Shown in pieces: positions 21,035 through 29,132 of a stretch of DNA of 37,046 nucleotides. The stretch lies in contig DYIZ01000056.1 of assembly GCA_020723385.1 (NCBI GenBank), positions 1 to 37,046 of the forward strand, given 5' to 3'. The position numbers and the translations under genes are program-made. Under the pieces are notes generated by a model. The model ran no database searches. It was not told the DNA's origin and saw nothing but the letters and a program-made list of their open reading frames with translations. Position 1 is the stretch's first letter. Each line of letters starts with the position of its first letter. This DNA is from Candidatus Aquidulcis sp. GTDB lineage: Bacteria; Chloroflexota; Anaerolineae; Anaerolineales; UBA4823.

Positions 21035-21427
21035 GGGGATGACAGGCTTCGACGGAGGAGGCTGGCCCCAGATTGCGAGCCGAGAGGCGCCGACCTCGTT
21101 AACTCAGCGCAAAACAAAGTGCCAAAAACACTTCCTACGCTGCTCTTCCCCTCGCTGCATAAGCGTTCGGAACCAGTCCTGACCCTCTAGCAGGGTCACG
21201 TCCGCCAGCCCCGCTCTCTGACCGGAGGTTGGACCGGGCGCTAAAATGCCAGAGTGCCGCACGCAATGCCGCTTACCGTGCGAAAGAGAAGCCCTCGGGC
21301 TTCAGCGGCTAACAGGGTGAGCGCCCTGTCGCTCGTGCGCCGCCTTGCGATTAACTACGAACGACTACGCTCGTAGATATCTGCGGGTCTAATCTTTCGG
21401 ACGCGGGTTCGATTCCCGCCATCTCCA
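21035..21427 (+). ncRNA. ssrA: tmRNA (one-piece)
   Basis: The 5' end GGGGATGACAGGCTTCGAC and the 3' end GGTTCGATTCCCGCCATCTCCA are classic tmRNA ends. The acceptor stem GGGGAUG pairs with CAUCUCC (one G-U), and the T-arm is GTTCGATTC. The tag frame starts at the GCA at 21109 and ends at the TAA at 21160-21162, giving AKQSAKNTSYAALPLAA, a 17-residue tag with the usual hydrophobic LAA degradation end. The CCA is not fully encoded (the genome reads CAA after the discriminator A), so it must be added after processing. tmRNA rescues stalled ribosomes together with SmpB, which is not in this window. It has its own promoter and terminator. Confidence 0.97.
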
Positions 21428-21428
21428 C

Positions 21429-21479
21429 AAAAAGCGCATTGCCGTTCAGGATTGAACACGGCAATGCGCTTTTATTTTT
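21429..21479 (+). terminator. Rho-independent terminator of tmRNA
   Basis: A perfect 15-bp stem (21430-21444 with 21459-21473) around GCGCATTGCCG / CGGCAATGCGC, followed by a T-rich run. It begins two bases after the mature tmRNA 3' end. Confidence 0.93.
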
Positions 21480-22472: not shown

Positions 22473-24422
22473 CTATCCGATCTCCGCAATGATGCGCCCC
22501 ATTGGGGCTACATCGTAACCAGGCAAAGCTGCCACAGCCCGACGAAACGCTGGGTCATCCAACACCTGGAAGAGCGGCGCCAGCAGCGGTGATTGGTAAT
22601 ATTGGCGGGGGATCACCAGATCGTACCGCTCCTGAAACAACGGGATGAAATCCAGTTCCAGAGCTTGTGCCGCAGCCGCAATACCCAGGCCGCAGTCTGC
22701 CCTGCCGGAAGCCACCGCTGCCGCAACTGCCAGATGCGTGTATTCCTCTTGATTGTAGCCTCGAACCGATTCAGGTGCAATCCCCATTAAGTCTAATTGA
22801 TAATCGAGCAGCACACGCGTCCCCGCGCCGCGCTGCCGGTTGACGAAAGCCACTTCCGGGCGGGCCAGATCGGCCAGCGAATGAATGCCCTTTGGATTGC
22901 CTTTCACGGTGAGCAATCCCTGCTCACGGCCCACCAGCGCCATCACCACCACCGGCACGCCCGGCAGATACTCGCCAATTGCTGCCAGGTTGTATTCCCC
23001 GGTTTCAGGGTCGAGCAGGTGCGAGCCGGCCAGGTGCGCCTCGCCCCGCCGCAGCGCCACAAGCCCCCCCTGGCTGCCCACGTTGGCCGAGGCCAGCCGG
23101 CGATCACGCTTCGAGAGGAACTGCGCCAGCACATCCAGCGTGATGTCGTGCGAGCCGATAGCAAATATTGTGCGTTCGATCTCGGCGGGCGAGCGATACA
23201 ATCGCACGCTGACCTCCGCCCCGGCGGGCAGCCCTTGCGACCCCCTGGGGATAATGGCAATCCCATCGGCGCGCACCAGCGAGGAGATAACCCCCGCCCC
23301 GCGCGCCACCGGCGCGGCCAGCAGCTTTTCGCCCACTCTCCCGACGACCACGCGTAGAAAATCATCATCCCCGGCAGGCGATGTGACCTTGCGGGTCAGC
23401 GTCGCCGCCAGCAGGAGCGGTTCGACGGGCGGCCGCCCCAGCCAGCGCGAGATCAACGGCTCGACGAAAATCTCTCCCGTCAGCGCCGTCGAGACCGGAT
23501 ACCCCGGCACGCCGATGACCGGTTTTTTCCCGATTATCCCCAGGATGACAGGGTGGCCGGGACGCACCGCGACCCCATGCACCAGCAGTTCGCCCAGCGT
23601 CTCGACGACTTTGGATGAAAAATCCTCCGACCCGGCAGAGGAGCCGGCGTTGAGCAGGATGAGATCGTGCCCGGAGGCGGCTTCCTGCACCCGTTGACAA
23701 ATAACCTCGAACCGGTCGGGAGTGATGGGAAACCGGGTGGCGATCCCGCCCCATTGGTTAACCTGCGCTGCCAGCACCATCGAGTTGTATTCGATGATAT
23801 CCCCGGCCTTCACCGGCTGCCCAATGGCGACCAGTTCACTCCCGGTAGGCAGGATAGCCACGCGTGGCCGGCGGCTGACTCGTACCCGGTCGTGCCCGCA
23901 GGCAGCGATGGCCCCCAGGTCAACCGGGCGCAGTGTGTGCCCGGCGGGCAGCACAAGCTGTGTAGCGACCATATCTTCGCCCATCGGGCGGACGTGACTC
24001 CACGGGGTCACGGCTGCCCGGATGCGGATCGCCGCCGGGCGGCGCGCATCATCGGCAGGTTGATCCTCAGCGGTGCGCGGTTCCACATTCTCGATCGGGA
24101 TCACCGCATCTGCCCAGCCGGGAAGCGGGTCGCCGGTATCCACGTAGGCGGCTTGCTCGCCGCACACCAGCGTCAACGGCTCGGAGAGCATTGCTCTGGT
24201 GGTATCGGCAGAGCGCACTGCGAACCCATCCATCGCCGAGGCATGGTAGTGCGGCGACGAGATTTTGGCCCACACCGTCTCGGCCAGCACGCGCCCGGCG
24301 GCCTGTTCATCGAGTGGAATATCTTCGACGCCCAATATGCCCCACAATCTGGCGGATTCGAGCGCCGTTTGCAGCCGGGCCTGGGCATCGGGGAGGGGGA
24401 TGTCGTGGAGGTAGATGGACAT
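22473..24422 (-). CDS. MoeA-type molybdopterin molybdenumtransferase fused to a periplasmic-binding-like domain
   Basis: 649 residues. The first about 420 are MoeA: SAMDGFAVR near 63-71, a VDTGDPLPGWADAVIPIE segment, LPTGSELV, NAGSSAGSEDFSSKVVE and the GVPGYPVS loop. Residues about 440-640 form a LysR-substrate/PBP-like domain (ASANVGSQGGLVALRRGEAHLAGSHLLDPETGEYN, split across lobes). This two-domain design is known in several bacteria and archaea, where the PBP part is thought to sense or deliver molybdate or tungstate. MoeA inserts the metal into adenylated molybdopterin. No ribosome site is obvious. A second, unfused MoeA lies 1.6 kb upstream, suggesting one each for Mo and W or for different cofactor forms (inference). 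Confidence 0.88.
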   Translation of the reverse strand: MSIYLHDIPLPDAQARLQTALESARLWGILGVEDIPLDEQAAGRVLAETVWAKISSPHYHASAMDGFAVRSADTTRAMLSEPLTLVCGEQAAYVDTGDPLPGWADAVIPIENVEPRTAEDQPADDARRPAAIRIRAAVTPWSHVRPMGEDMVATQLVLPAGHTLRPVDLGAIAACGHDRVRVSRRPRVAILPTGSELVAIGQPVKAGDIIEYNSMVLAAQVNQWGGIATRFPITPDRFEVICQRVQEAASGHDLILLNAGSSAGSEDFSSKVVETLGELLVHGVAVRPGHPVILGIIGKKPVIGVPGYPVSTALTGEIFVEPLISRWLGRPPVEPLLLAATLTRKVTSPAGDDDFLRVVVGRVGEKLLAAPVARGAGVISSLVRADGIAIIPRGSQGLPAGAEVSVRLYRSPAEIERTIFAIGSHDITLDVLAQFLSKRDRRLASANVGSQGGLVALRRGEAHLAGSHLLDPETGEYNLAAIGEYLPGVPVVVMALVGREQGLLTVKGNPKGIHSLADLARPEVAFVNRQRGAGTRVLLDYQLDLMGIAPESVRGYNQEEYTHLAVAAAVASGRADCGLGIAAAAQALELDFIPLFQERYDLVIPRQYYQSPLLAPLFQVLDDPAFRRAVAALPGYDVAPMGRIIAEIG

Positions 24423-25640: not shown

Positions 25641-26032
25641 GATGTCTCGGCGATGACGGTGTGCCCGGCCTGCTGCAAGGCTTGAATGGCGCTATCGAGC
25701 TGGTAGGCTTTGACCAGAATGTAATCGGTATCGAATGTCGAAAGGGCGAAAATGCTGACCCCCGCGGCCGCCAACGGGATACTCAATGATGCCAGAACGC
25801 CTATCAGTGTGAATTCCAGCGGGCCTTGTACTTTCAATGCGCGCATCCCTCGCTCAGAACGGCCGGCCAGTGGTACTGCGCTATCGTCACAAACAACCGT
25901 GATTTCTTGGGGGGTGCGAATAAGCGCCAGCAAGTTTTTACCGTGCGCCCAGCCCGGCGGCATGTGCGCGTCGGGATCCAGCCGGATGATTGCCAGTCGG
26001 TCGGGCAGGAGGGTGAGGGAGTGATTGGGCAT
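25637..26032 (-). CDS. ACT-domain protein
   Basis: 131 residues. The ATG overlaps the moeA stop by one base (TGATG). The C-terminal half (EFTLIGVLASLSIPLAAAGVSIFALSTFDTDYILV) is the helix-strand pattern of an ACT domain. The N-terminal half (RLAIIRLDP ... LLALIRTPQEITVVCDD) is the paired domain of the small COG3603-type ACT proteins. Such proteins bind amino acids or other small effectors as dimers, but their target is usually unknown. It has no enzyme domain. Its place between moeA and a deacetylase does not reveal the ligand. Confidence 0.82.
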   Translation of the reverse strand: MPNHSLTLLPDRLAIIRLDPDAHMPPGWAHGKNLLALIRTPQEITVVCDDSAVPLAGRSERGMRALKVQGPLEFTLIGVLASLSIPLAAAGVSIFALSTFDTDYILVKAYQLDSAIQALQQAGHTVIAETS

Positions 26033-27264
26033 CAGATCAACTGCACTTCGACGGTATCCCCGGCGTTCAGGCCGGTGGCATCGGGCGGGATGCGCACCAG
26101 ACCATCGGCGCGGGCCAGGGTGAAAATCAGGTTGCTCTTGCCAAAGATCGGCTCGGCGTAGGGTTTCCCCGCCAGCGAATTGATACGCACGGGGATCCAG
26201 TCTTCGCGCCCGGCCTCGGATGGGATGTTGAGCGTCAGGCGGGCAGCCATAGCCTGCCGCGGGCGGCCGCGGCGCAGCCCCAGGAGAGTCTCCACCACCG
26301 GGATGACAAACAACCCGGCGATAACCAGCGCGCTGACCGGGTTGCCGGGCAGGCCGATCACAGCTTTGCCGTTGCAGACTGCTAGAATGGTGGGCTTGCC
26401 GGGGCGGACGCTGACGCCATGTACCAGCACGCCCGGCTGGCCCAACTCGCCGATCACCTGGGCGGTCAAATCACGCGTGCTGGCCGAAGACCCGGCGGTG
26501 ATGACGAGCAAATCGCATTCCGCCAGGGCGCGTTTTGCCACTGAGAATAGCGCATTAGCTTGATCGAGGACGATGCCGTAGCGGGCGGGGATCGCGCCGG
26601 CGCTGCTCACAAGAGCGCTGAGGGTATAGGAGTTGACATCCCGTACCTGGCCGGGGAGGGGATCGCTTTCGGGTGGGACGATCTCGTCTCCGGTGGAGAT
26701 GATGCCAGCCACCGGCATCCGCGCCACCGGGAGCGCGGCGACTCCCAGGGCCGCCAAGCCCCCGATCTCCGGCGCGCGCAGCCGCACGCCCGCGGGGATG
26801 ACGATCTCATTGGCGGCTACGTCTTCGCCCACTTTGATGATATTCTCCCCGACCGCCGCGGCCCGCATCACTTCGATTTCGCCGGCGCGGGCGGCCTGGG
26901 TGTGTTCGACCATCACCACGGCGTCAGCGCCATCGGGCAGCATCCCACCGGTGTGAATCAGGGCGCATTCGCCTTTTTGGAGGCCAAAGACCGGCCTCCG
27001 CCCCATCGGCGCTTCTCCGGCCAGGCGCAGGTAAGCGGGCAGATTTTCACCTGCGCCGAAAGTATCGCCGGCGCGCACCGCGTAACCGTCAACCGTGCTA
27101 CGAGGAAAGGATGGCAGCGAGTGCGGCGCGGTGACCGGCGCAGCGGTGACCCGGTCCAGCGCGTTGATCAGCGCTACACTTTCCGAGAGCAGGGCAGGTT
27201 CGAGGCGCGCCAGCAGGCGAGCCAGCGCGTCTGCGGGTGGGAGGAGGGTGAGAAATTCGGGCAT
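26032..27264 (-). CDS. moeA: Molybdopterin molybdenumtransferase MoeA
   Basis: 410 residues, the normal family length. The ATG overlaps the stop of the UbiA-like gene by one base (TAATG). The domains are all present: the N-terminal helix and FPRSTVDGYAVR loop, the LIHTGGMLPDGADAVVMVEHT region, ISTGDEIVPP, ITAGSSASTRDLTAQV (MPT-binding loop), GLPGNPVSAL, and the C-terminal beta-barrel ending ATGLNAGDTVEVQLI. MoeA ligates molybdate to molybdopterin in the cytoplasm. It differs from the fused paralogue at 22473 by lacking the PBP domain. Other moa/mob genes are not in the window. Confidence 0.93.
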   Translation of the reverse strand: MPEFLTLLPPADALARLLARLEPALLSESVALINALDRVTAAPVTAPHSLPSFPRSTVDGYAVRAGDTFGAGENLPAYLRLAGEAPMGRRPVFGLQKGECALIHTGGMLPDGADAVVMVEHTQAARAGEIEVMRAAAVGENIIKVGEDVAANEIVIPAGVRLRAPEIGGLAALGVAALPVARMPVAGIISTGDEIVPPESDPLPGQVRDVNSYTLSALVSSAGAIPARYGIVLDQANALFSVAKRALAECDLLVITAGSSASTRDLTAQVIGELGQPGVLVHGVSVRPGKPTILAVCNGKAVIGLPGNPVSALVIAGLFVIPVVETLLGLRRGRPRQAMAARLTLNIPSEAGREDWIPVRINSLAGKPYAEPIFGKSNLIFTLARADGLVRIPPDATGLNAGDTVEVQLI

Positions 27265-28169
27265 TACCGGGTCCAGAATTCGAAGGTGAGCAGGTAGGCC
27301 GCTACCCCAAAGGTCGCTACCGCGGTGAGGGTCAATCCAAGCCAGTTGGGTTTTGACCCGGCAGCGATGCGGTTCATTTGCCAGATTTGGAAGACAGCCA
27401 GCGGGAGGGCCAGGAAGACTGGCCCGGCGATGGGTATAGGCAGGCCAAAGATGACGGCCAATCCGAAGATGACGAAAGCTGTCATGAGCAAAATGTTGTG
27501 GAGCAGCATCCCCCGCTCCCAGCCGATGCGGATCATCAATGTGCGTTTGTTATGCTTGAGATCGGAGGCATAATCGGGCAGCTCGAAAGCCAGCATCATT
27601 GACAGGTGAATGAGCACAAGCGGAAAAGTCGTCATCGCCAGCAGGCGGTGCAGCTCGCCAGTTTGAAGCAAAAAGGCAAAGGCCGGTGTCAGGCTGGCGA
27701 CGAGCACCGATGTGGTCAGCTCGCCGTAACCGGACGAGGCCAGCCGGATGGGGGGGACGGAATAGTAGAAGGCTGCCAGGAATGCCATCAATAAGACAGC
27801 CGCCAGCGCTGGCGTGTTAATGATGGATTGGAGCAGGGGAATCGTGAACGATGCAACGGCAGCCAGGCAAGCCATCGCCAGCCACAAGGCCACGGGTCGA
27901 GGCAATTTGCCGGGGCCGAGCGCGTCGCTGCCTCCGGTGAAGAATGTCCGGTGGGGATTGTCGGCGTCTGTGGGGGAATCGAAATATTCGTTGAGCAGGT
28001 GGGCGGCAAGCTGGAGCAGTGTAACCCAGGCCTGGCCGAAGAAATACAGCCCCGAGTTGATCGGATGCCCTAGATAGTGGGCAATGCCCACCCCGAGGGC
28101 GTAAAGCAGCGCCGCGCCGAGCAAAAAATGGGGCCGCGTAAGCCGGACGAGAAGCCGAAAAGTGGTCAT
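27264..28169 (-). CDS. UbiA-family prenyltransferase (MenA-like)
   Basis: 301 residues. The ATG at 28169 overlaps the DinB-like stop (ATGA). It is a polytopic protein with about 8-9 hydrophobic helices. The first Asp-rich motif is NEYFDSPTDAD (NxxxDxxxD), the second is DYASDLKHNKRT. These bind the Mg-diphosphate of a polyprenyl donor. UbiA-family enzymes attach a prenyl chain to an aromatic acceptor in quinone, chlorophyll or lipid pathways. The spacing and the HNKRT end of the second motif resemble 1,4-dihydroxy-2-naphthoate prenyltransferase, but the acceptor cannot be proved. No other menaquinone gene is present. Confidence 0.88.
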   Translation of the reverse strand: MTTFRLLVRLTRPHFLLGAALLYALGVGIAHYLGHPINSGLYFFGQAWVTLLQLAAHLLNEYFDSPTDADNPHRTFFTGGSDALGPGKLPRPVALWLAMACLAAVASFTIPLLQSIINTPALAAVLLMAFLAAFYYSVPPIRLASSGYGELTTSVLVASLTPAFAFLLQTGELHRLLAMTTFPLVLIHLSMMLAFELPDYASDLKHNKRTLMIRIGWERGMLLHNILLMTAFVIFGLAVIFGLPIPIAGPVFLALPLAVFQIWQMNRIAAGSKPNWLGLTLTAVATFGVAAYLLTFEFWTR

Positions 28170-28642
28170 TGATTCAGAACCCGGCGGATATCTCGCAGGT
28201 GAATCTGGTTGTGCCGGTAGATCATTTTGACAATCTCGGAAAGCGGGGCGATGCCAAGATAGGGGTGGCGTCCCTGCCGGGCCAGGTCGCTCTCCCCGAC
28301 CCGAGAGACCTTTTCGATGTTGCTCCGCCGCGCCTGCTCGAAGCGGCGCATCAACTCGATTGGCTGTACCTCGCCCAAAGCGGCGACTTCCCGCGCATTG
28401 AAAGCGTCAATGTCGAATCCTTCGGGCGCGCCCAGCCCGCCAGCCAGGAAATCATCCAACTGCCGGGTAAATTCGATCTCGGCCGATGCCAGGTGCGCCA
28501 AAATCTGCTGAATCGTCCACGGCTTATCGCCGCTATAAACGGTCTGCGCCCATTGATCGGGCGCGAGATCATGGAAGAACGCTAACAGTTTATCGGTCTC
28601 ACTCGAGATGCGCTGGACAAGATGTTGTGTGATTGCGACCAT
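28166..28642 (-). CDS. DinB/YfiT-like four-helix metal-binding protein
   Basis: 158 residues, ATG 28642, one base after the extended rhodanese frame. The four-helix DinB_2 fold is seen in LLAFFHDLAPDQW, TIQQILAHLASAEIEFTRQL and IYRHNQIHLRDIRRVL. His in ILAHLASAE and the His pair in YRHNQIHLRD form the usual three-His metal site. Members include thiol-dependent transferases and many uncharacterised proteins. It is cytoplasmic with no signal. Its close coupling with a rhodanese-like protein may hint at thiol or sulfur chemistry (inference). Confidence 0.85.
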   Translation of the reverse strand: MVAITQHLVQRISSETDKLLAFFHDLAPDQWAQTVYSGDKPWTIQQILAHLASAEIEFTRQLDDFLAGGLGAPEGFDIDAFNAREVAALGEVQPIELMRRFEQARRSNIEKVSRVGESDLARQGRHPYLGIAPLSEIVKMIYRHNQIHLRDIRRVLNQ

Positions 28643-28643
28643 T

Positions 28644-29132
28644 TTAGGGGGAAGTAGAACTCGTCGGATAACCGGCGGATAGCCAGCCCTGAAAACCGCC
28701 TAAGAGTGGGGTGACTTTGCTGAAACCGTTGTCAAGAAGCACTTGCGCCACACGGGCGCTGGATTGTTCGGCAGGTCAGGTGCAGTAGGTGATGATCCAG
28801 TCCGATGGGTCTAGCTCGCTGAGCCGGGTGGCGATCTCCTCCTCGGGGATAAGCAGCGCTCCTTCGATATGGCTCTGTTGGTAGGAAGCCACGGTGCGCA
28901 CATCCAAGAATACGGCTGTGCCAGCGTCGAAGGCGGATTTGGCATCATCCAGGGAAACCCTCGTGATCACAGCCGGCGCGCTGACGGCAGCGGTCGTTGG
29001 CGCGGCGACTTCGGTCGGAATGGCGGTCGGCTGCGGTGAATTTGGCCGAAGCAGCCAAAAACCTGCAATCATAATGAGAGTAACACCTAGCACAATTGTA
29101 ACGAGTGGTATAAGCTTGTTCTTATTGGACAT
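28644..29132 (-). CDS. Membrane-anchored rhodanese-like protein, candidate selenoprotein with in-frame UGA
   Basis: 162 residues if UGA (28776-28778) is read as selenocysteine at position 119; otherwise 118 residues. ATG 29132 has GAGGA just upstream. A membrane anchor covers about 8-28, then a linker and a rhodanese domain from about 57 (ITRVSLDDAKSAFDAG, VFLDVRTVASYQQSHIEGALLIP). The frame reads IITYC-T-UGA-PAEQSSARVA, then VLLDNGFSKVTPLLGGFQGW, and ends at TAA 28644-28646. The part after the UGA is exactly what a rhodanese needs: the active-site loop, the Arg-containing helix and the final GG-x-x-GW turn. Related proteins, from memory, have YCxCP here, so UGA replaces Cys. The TAA lies one base before the next ATG, matching the tight packing of the whole operon. 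A nonsense mutation is the alternative. Confidence 0.75.
28745..28759 (-). promoter_or_regulatory. SECIS-like hairpin after the UGA
   Basis: A GCGCC / GGCGC stem with the loop CGUGU. The loop starts 22 bases after the UGA, within the distance range of bacterial SECIS elements, and has G as its second base, as expected for SelB binding. The stem is only 5 bp, so this is suggestive rather than proof. Confidence 0.5.

Follow-up and report, generated by a model that had tools for sequence, protein, structure and literature searches.

Does the single in-frame UGA in a rhodanese-like gene of Candidatus Aquidulcis sp. end a short protein, or is it read as selenocysteine (Sec)? The gene lies in the window, by which we mean the whole 37,046-nucleotide stretch of DNA that we analysed; it forms contig C163 in a draft genome of 6.4 Mb and 95.6% completeness. 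A reading of the sequence alone had proposed a likely selenoprotein, and the conserved UGA, a SECIS hairpin behind it and the Sec machinery of the genome all support that proposal. On this comparative evidence, which is as strong as a sequence by itself can supply, we are highly confident that the gene encodes a selenoprotein with Sec at codon 119, and we infer that Sec is incorporated there in the cell. The features of the locus are collected in Table 1.

Table 1. Features of the candidate selenoprotein gene and of the genes that follow it, in window coordinates.
Feature	Position	Strand	Remarks
moeA-like gene	26032..27264	(-)	same run of genes
UbiA-like prenyltransferase	27264..28169	(-)	same run of genes
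DinB-like gene	28166..28642	(-)	next after the selenoprotein gene, 1 base past its TAA
Predicted rhodanese-like selenoprotein CDS, 162 aa	28644..29132	(-)	Sec at 119; stop TAA; 1 in-frame TGA, otherwise no lesion
Rhodanese domain, residues 61-152	28677..28952	(-)	Pfam PF00581, E 8.5e-15; AlphaFold2 model and Foldseek matches
Candidate bSECIS hairpin, stem GCGCC/GGCGC, loop CGUGU	28745..28759	(-)	fits the bSECIS model in Fig. 2 of PMC13188914
In-frame UGA, predicted Sec119	28776..28778	(-)	TGA at this codon in every close homologue
Cys117, rhodanese catalytic-Cys position	28782..28784	(-)	directly after predicted strand 112-116; aligned with the C of CRSGNRS in paralogues
Predicted membrane helix, residues 8-27	29052..29111	(-)	AlphaFold2 helix 8-27, hydrophobic sequence; followed by a Pro/Thr/Ala-rich linker

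The frame runs on the minus strand of 28644-29132 from an ATG to a TAA (28646-28644), and the UGA at codon 119 (28778-28776) is its sole interruption. As the sequence-only reading had noted, the 43 residues past the UGA complete a rhodanese fold with no other lesion: the match of the read-through product to PF00581 covers profile positions 2-101 of 102 and scores 55.5 bits, against a gathering threshold of 22.2. Conserved residues in this downstream part of the homologue alignment include G136, G145-G146, W150, and P156. The gene spacing described earlier was also confirmed and suggests that translation runs to the TAA: a single base separates the TAA from the following ATG (28642), and the gap would be 133 bases if the gene ended at the UGA. 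Further along the run, successive genes overlap by 4, 1, 1, and 4 bases.

The genome contains the full set of sel genes that the sequence-only reading had suggested looking for. We detected selA at 547 bits and selD at 326 bits, the N-terminal part of selB at 296 bits (323.6 bits with its C-terminal piece, cut-off 242), and a tRNA-Sec (selC) with the anticodon tca at 72 bits, which is above the Rfam gathering score. The selD gene has an in-frame TGA of its own, in the context NCAGU, and thus provides an internal positive control for UGA decoding by this genome.

Alignment of homologues at position 119, proposed as a check, showed that the UGA is conserved in close homologues. The same codon is TGA in all of the best 18 matches in the same family-level group (18/18), and in all 10 loci from named GTDB contigs, every one of which belongs to the Chloroflexota. 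Of 396 genomes sampled from the class, 66 had a match with an E-value of 1e-18 or better, and in 63 of these the codon was TGA; roughly one in six of the genomes in this sample carries a gene of this lineage. The family motif is Y-C-[TA]-U-[PQ]-x-E-x-[ST]-SA. We considered the non-UGA matches in three genomes (G266, G326, and G417) as possible Cys orthologues, but rejected them because, when read, they are ordinary CRSGxR-type rhodaneses, and they are therefore uninformative on exchange between Cys and Sec. One of these genomes, G326, belongs to the same order and is 99% complete; it has a selB over the cut-off, and we found in it neither a tRNA-Sec nor a UGA rhodanese. Some genomes (G064, G167, G250, G148, and G382) carry multiple UGA rhodanese genes, two or three per genome.

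No Cys form at the Sec position was seen among the Chloroflexota homologues. Outside the phylum, a VTT/DedA-type rhodanese fusion of the Comamonadaceae (UST56291.1, locus L195) has the loop YCDCPAE, with Cys at the aligned position; it differs from the window protein in this Cys, in its fused VTT membrane domain and in sequence, with about 37% identity over the domain. The YC-x-C-P motif that the sequence-only reading had given for related proteins is thus real. Its proposal needs one qualification: the predicted Sec is at +2 and not at the catalytic Cys.

Genomes with the UGA gene also tend to have tRNA-Sec: by our tally, made by hand from the listed genomes, it is present in 57 of the 63 class genomes with the gene and in 238 of the 333 without it (Fisher p 0.0009). 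For the 6 UGA-positive genomes in which the strict search found no tRNA-Sec, a laxer search gave a weak candidate of about 50 bits in 3, and selB is present in 2 of the 3 that were left, so the missing tRNA-Sec looks like draft incompleteness.

A hairpin whose loop starts at the 22nd base after the UGA had been described as fitting bacterial SECIS rules, and this was borne out, with covariation in addition. The hairpin, GCGCC-CGUGU-GGCGC, has a 5-bp stem and a 5-nt loop with G at loop position 2 and then U, the distance from the UGA to the loop is 21 nt, and it agrees with the bSECIS rules in the form in which they are given in PMC13188914. Its folding energy is -7.6 kcal/mol alone and -9.4 kcal/mol for the 48-50 nt stretch. 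Rfam had no match at the hairpin, and dinucleotide shuffles of the whole 50-nt stretch indicated no unusual stability (z +0.78). We replaced plain shuffles with synonymous-codon nulls for the hairpin; only 0.85% of random synonymous recodings of the window's own sequence fold as well as the 21-nt core.

Across 85 distinct homologous regions, on average 4.54 of the 5 stem pairs are Watson-Crick, compared with 2.79 +/- 0.08 under synonymous recoding and 4.12 +/- 0.04 under within-column codon permutation, and in 300 trials the observed mean was never attained under either null. Some effects of relatedness are left in the permutation nulls, and also in the tree described below. Synonymous changes occur as pairs on the two sides of the stem, such as AGC..GCG to AGT..GCA and GCC..GTG to GCT..GTA, and in L072/L115 three stem pairs have changed together (UCA..UGA). 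The loop G is invariant, and the T that follows it, a third codon position, is kept in 84 of the 85 regions. The SECIS shape rules hold in 84/85 and the energy rule in 72/85 (27-nt fold).

These results bear on the other ways in which such a frame could come about. In a draft assembly, a lone TGA within a frame that is otherwise intact could stem from a nonsense mutation or from a misread TGC or TGT, in which case the gene would be damaged or its sequence wrong. However, the same TGA is present in dozens of independently assembled genomes, among them the single-contig assemblies G005, G025, G026, G064, G250, and G388, and the codons past it are under both protein and RNA constraint. Conservation of the UGA together with downstream coding refutes a pseudogene or a sequencing error, and we give this explanation next to no weight. 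In bacteria, decoding of UGA as Sec competes with termination, and some truncated product is expected. The UGA could on that basis be seen as a true stop that gives a 118-residue product, either alone or as a regulated alternative set by the selenium supply. We consider this very improbable: the part of the protein that would be lost completes the rhodanese domain and stays conserved, and the stop-to-start spacing suggests translation to the TAA.

An open frame would also result if UGA stood throughout the genome for one of the ordinary amino acids, such as Trp or Gly, but beyond the open frame itself we found nothing in favor of this. Where neighboring genes overlap by 4 bases, the shared sequence is ATGA, which shows that TGA does terminate genes of this run. 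The same is seen within the family, where the terminal stops of 84 distinct homologous genes are TGA in 28 cases, TAA in 41, and TAG in 15, so that one and the same gene would use TGA both as an internal Sec codon and as its terminal stop. The genome also has a tRNA-Sec and SelB, and the non-Sec homologue carries Cys at the aligned position. An alternative genetic code is refuted by the TGA stops, and its probability is negligible.

If the gene encodes a selenoprotein, SelB and a Sec-tRNA(UCA) would read UGA codon 119 as Sec, and the hairpin 21 nt downstream would direct the insertion. The product would be a 162-residue rhodanese-fold protein with one N-terminal helix in the membrane. The AlphaFold2 model, made with 35 homologues, has a mean pLDDT of 87 and shows the rhodanese fold and the helix at residues 8-27, in line with the earlier proposal of a membrane anchor, and the best Foldseek matches are rhodaneses (E 8.5e-10 to 6mxv). 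The N-termini of relatives have a membrane helix, some have a lipobox instead, and others have a zinc-ribbon-like segment ahead of the helix. Because relatives carry a membrane helix or a lipobox, we infer that the rhodanese domain is likely extracytoplasmic.

In the model, Cys117 follows strand 112-116, and residue 119 is in the loop before helix 123-134. The paralogues have CRSGNRS at the aligned place, so Cys117 is at the usual catalytic position and Sec119 would be an added residue at +2, which gives the active-loop motif YCTU (C-T-U, a case of C-x-U). Cys117 and Sec119 may form a selenenylsulfide pair, and the most likely activity would be thiol/selenol redox chemistry or persulfide transfer.

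The sequence-only reading had mentioned Sec-containing rhodanese-like proteins, and such proteins are indeed listed in PMC13188914 (Table 1) and PMC1088965. The best NCBIfam match of the window protein, which all 35 aligned relatives also match, is NF041203 'rhodanese_LYCAU', described in Table 1 of PMC13188914 as rhodanese-related (seleno)protein, form 3, with the motif CxU and the example TKB26178.1. The window protein scores 77.1 bits against this model and ten relatives score 62-93, so that none of the 11 members that were scored one by one reaches the curated cut-off of 115, and as a consequence genes of this lineage are likely to be annotated as truncated rhodaneses. The rhodanese domain and the C-x-U in the active loop are shared with NF041203; the window family differs in that it mostly has YCTU, carries a membrane anchor or a lipobox, and includes forms with U-x-U. 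By sequence, it is probably a divergent membrane-anchored sister branch of NF041203 that works like it.

Other known rhodaneses are further removed. TsoB (NF045694), a rhodanese/DsbD fusion-like selenoprotein listed as form 5 with the motif UxxxxU in PMC13188914, is rhodanese-related and has two Sec, like the U-x-U relatives described below, but its architecture and Sec spacing are different, and the window protein reaches just 20.6 bits with that model, whose cut-off is 805. Rhodanese-like selenoprotein forms 1, 2, and 4 (PMC13188914, PMC1088965) also have Sec in a rhodanese-family protein. Their motifs as listed there, UxxS and UxxG, start with U and contain no C-x-U, whereas the window family keeps the Cys at the catalytic position and would have Sec at +2. 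The single-domain rhodaneses GlpE, PspE, and YgaP, detected by sequence and structure, share the fold but have an ordinary rhodanese active loop without Sec and without C-x-U (of the CRSGNRS type in Chloroflexota paralogues). A CxU rhodanese selenoprotein is therefore a known kind; in the parts of these sources available to us, we did not find the membrane-anchored Chloroflexota branch or the UxU forms described.

Twelve relatives have a second UGA in place of the Cys that is invariant in all others, which gives the motif Y-U-[TA]-U (UGA-NNN-UGA). Seven of these belong to the class, with G005 and G012 from the same family-level group among them, and the remaining five belong to other classes (loci L034/L101 in G005, L040/L102 in G012, L103-L107, L183-L185, L187, and L188). 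Most of the genomes concerned have tRNA-Sec and/or selB, with the exception of G546, a draft. In a tree of the proteins in which C stood in for U, the Cys/UGA label changes at least 7 times on well-supported branches, although the alignment is short and the exact number of changes uncertain, and none of 200 bootstrap trees had a single change. A single origin of UxU is thus not supported, and by sequence there have apparently been several independent changes. We saw no UxU motif in the excerpts consulted from Table 1 of PMC13188914, a 2026 prokaryotic selenoprotein inventory, and a literature search for UxU with a diselenide found nothing, which is weak evidence given its limited coverage. With the states CxC, CxU, and UxU all in one family, the contribution of Sec could be compared position by position, and the UxU genes, with two Sec codons six bases apart and one hairpin, would be a good test of how SelB copes with such close UGAs. 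In f72, another family-level group of the phylum, otherwise similar membrane-anchored proteins (L171-L174, L177-L179, L181, and L194) have the loop GDAxRP, with neither Cys nor Sec.

The neighborhoods of the relatives suggest a metal-handling role that can be tested. Of 102 loci, some of them redundant, 33 have metal transport or regulation genes in their fetched flanks, versus 0 of 28 ordinary rhodanese loci. Among the Pfam families of nearest neighbors, E1-E2 ATPases are joint first (13/140). At L106, L116, L117, L024, L069, L110, and L125, the predicted Sec-rhodanese genes are beside P-type metal ATPases, PCuAC-like, CDF, ZIP, ArsR, Fur/DtxR-like or FeoB genes, as assigned by resemblance and tblastn. 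Because heavy-metal transporters are encoded next to some of the relatives, the protein may plausibly act at the cell surface in metal or thiol stress, although the window itself lacks such a neighborhood and this lead does not apply to it directly. One could go further and suppose that the selenoprotein acts on a metal or metalloid, with Cys-x-Sec as a soft-metal ligand or reductant, and is not a sulfurtransferase. The neighborhoods would fit this as well, but the control loci are few and in part redundant (Fisher p 0.036 for the ATPases), peptidase M3 is an equally frequent neighbor, and we recognised no metal gene among the neighbors in the window, which are the DinB-like, UbiA, and moeA-like genes, so we regard it as unlikely, if worth keeping in mind. 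Taking the family as a whole, we tentatively suggest, as a possibility we do not hold firmly, that the window gene belongs to a family of surface-anchored rhodanese selenoproteins found across the Chloroflexota, that the catalytic Cys of this family has repeatedly changed to Sec to give U-x-U under one SECIS, and that this would form a diselenide or Se/Se relay site that serves in extracytoplasmic metal or thiol stress.

The proposed linkage to moeA, ubiA, and DinB genes holds within the same family-level lineage and fails beyond it: G005 and G012 preserve the order DinB-UbiA-moeA, G025 and G026 preserve part of it, and it does not extend to other genomes. We therefore rejected a conserved operon as a clue to function, as the synteny is confined to genomes of the same family. 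Elsewhere in the window, Rfam detects a tmRNA at 21035-21430 (+) with 154 bits, which ARAGORN missed. A second moeA-like protein with an apparent C-terminal substrate-binding-like domain is encoded at 22473-24422 (-), in the same direction as the first, and both moeA-like genes are retained in G005, G012, G025, and G026.
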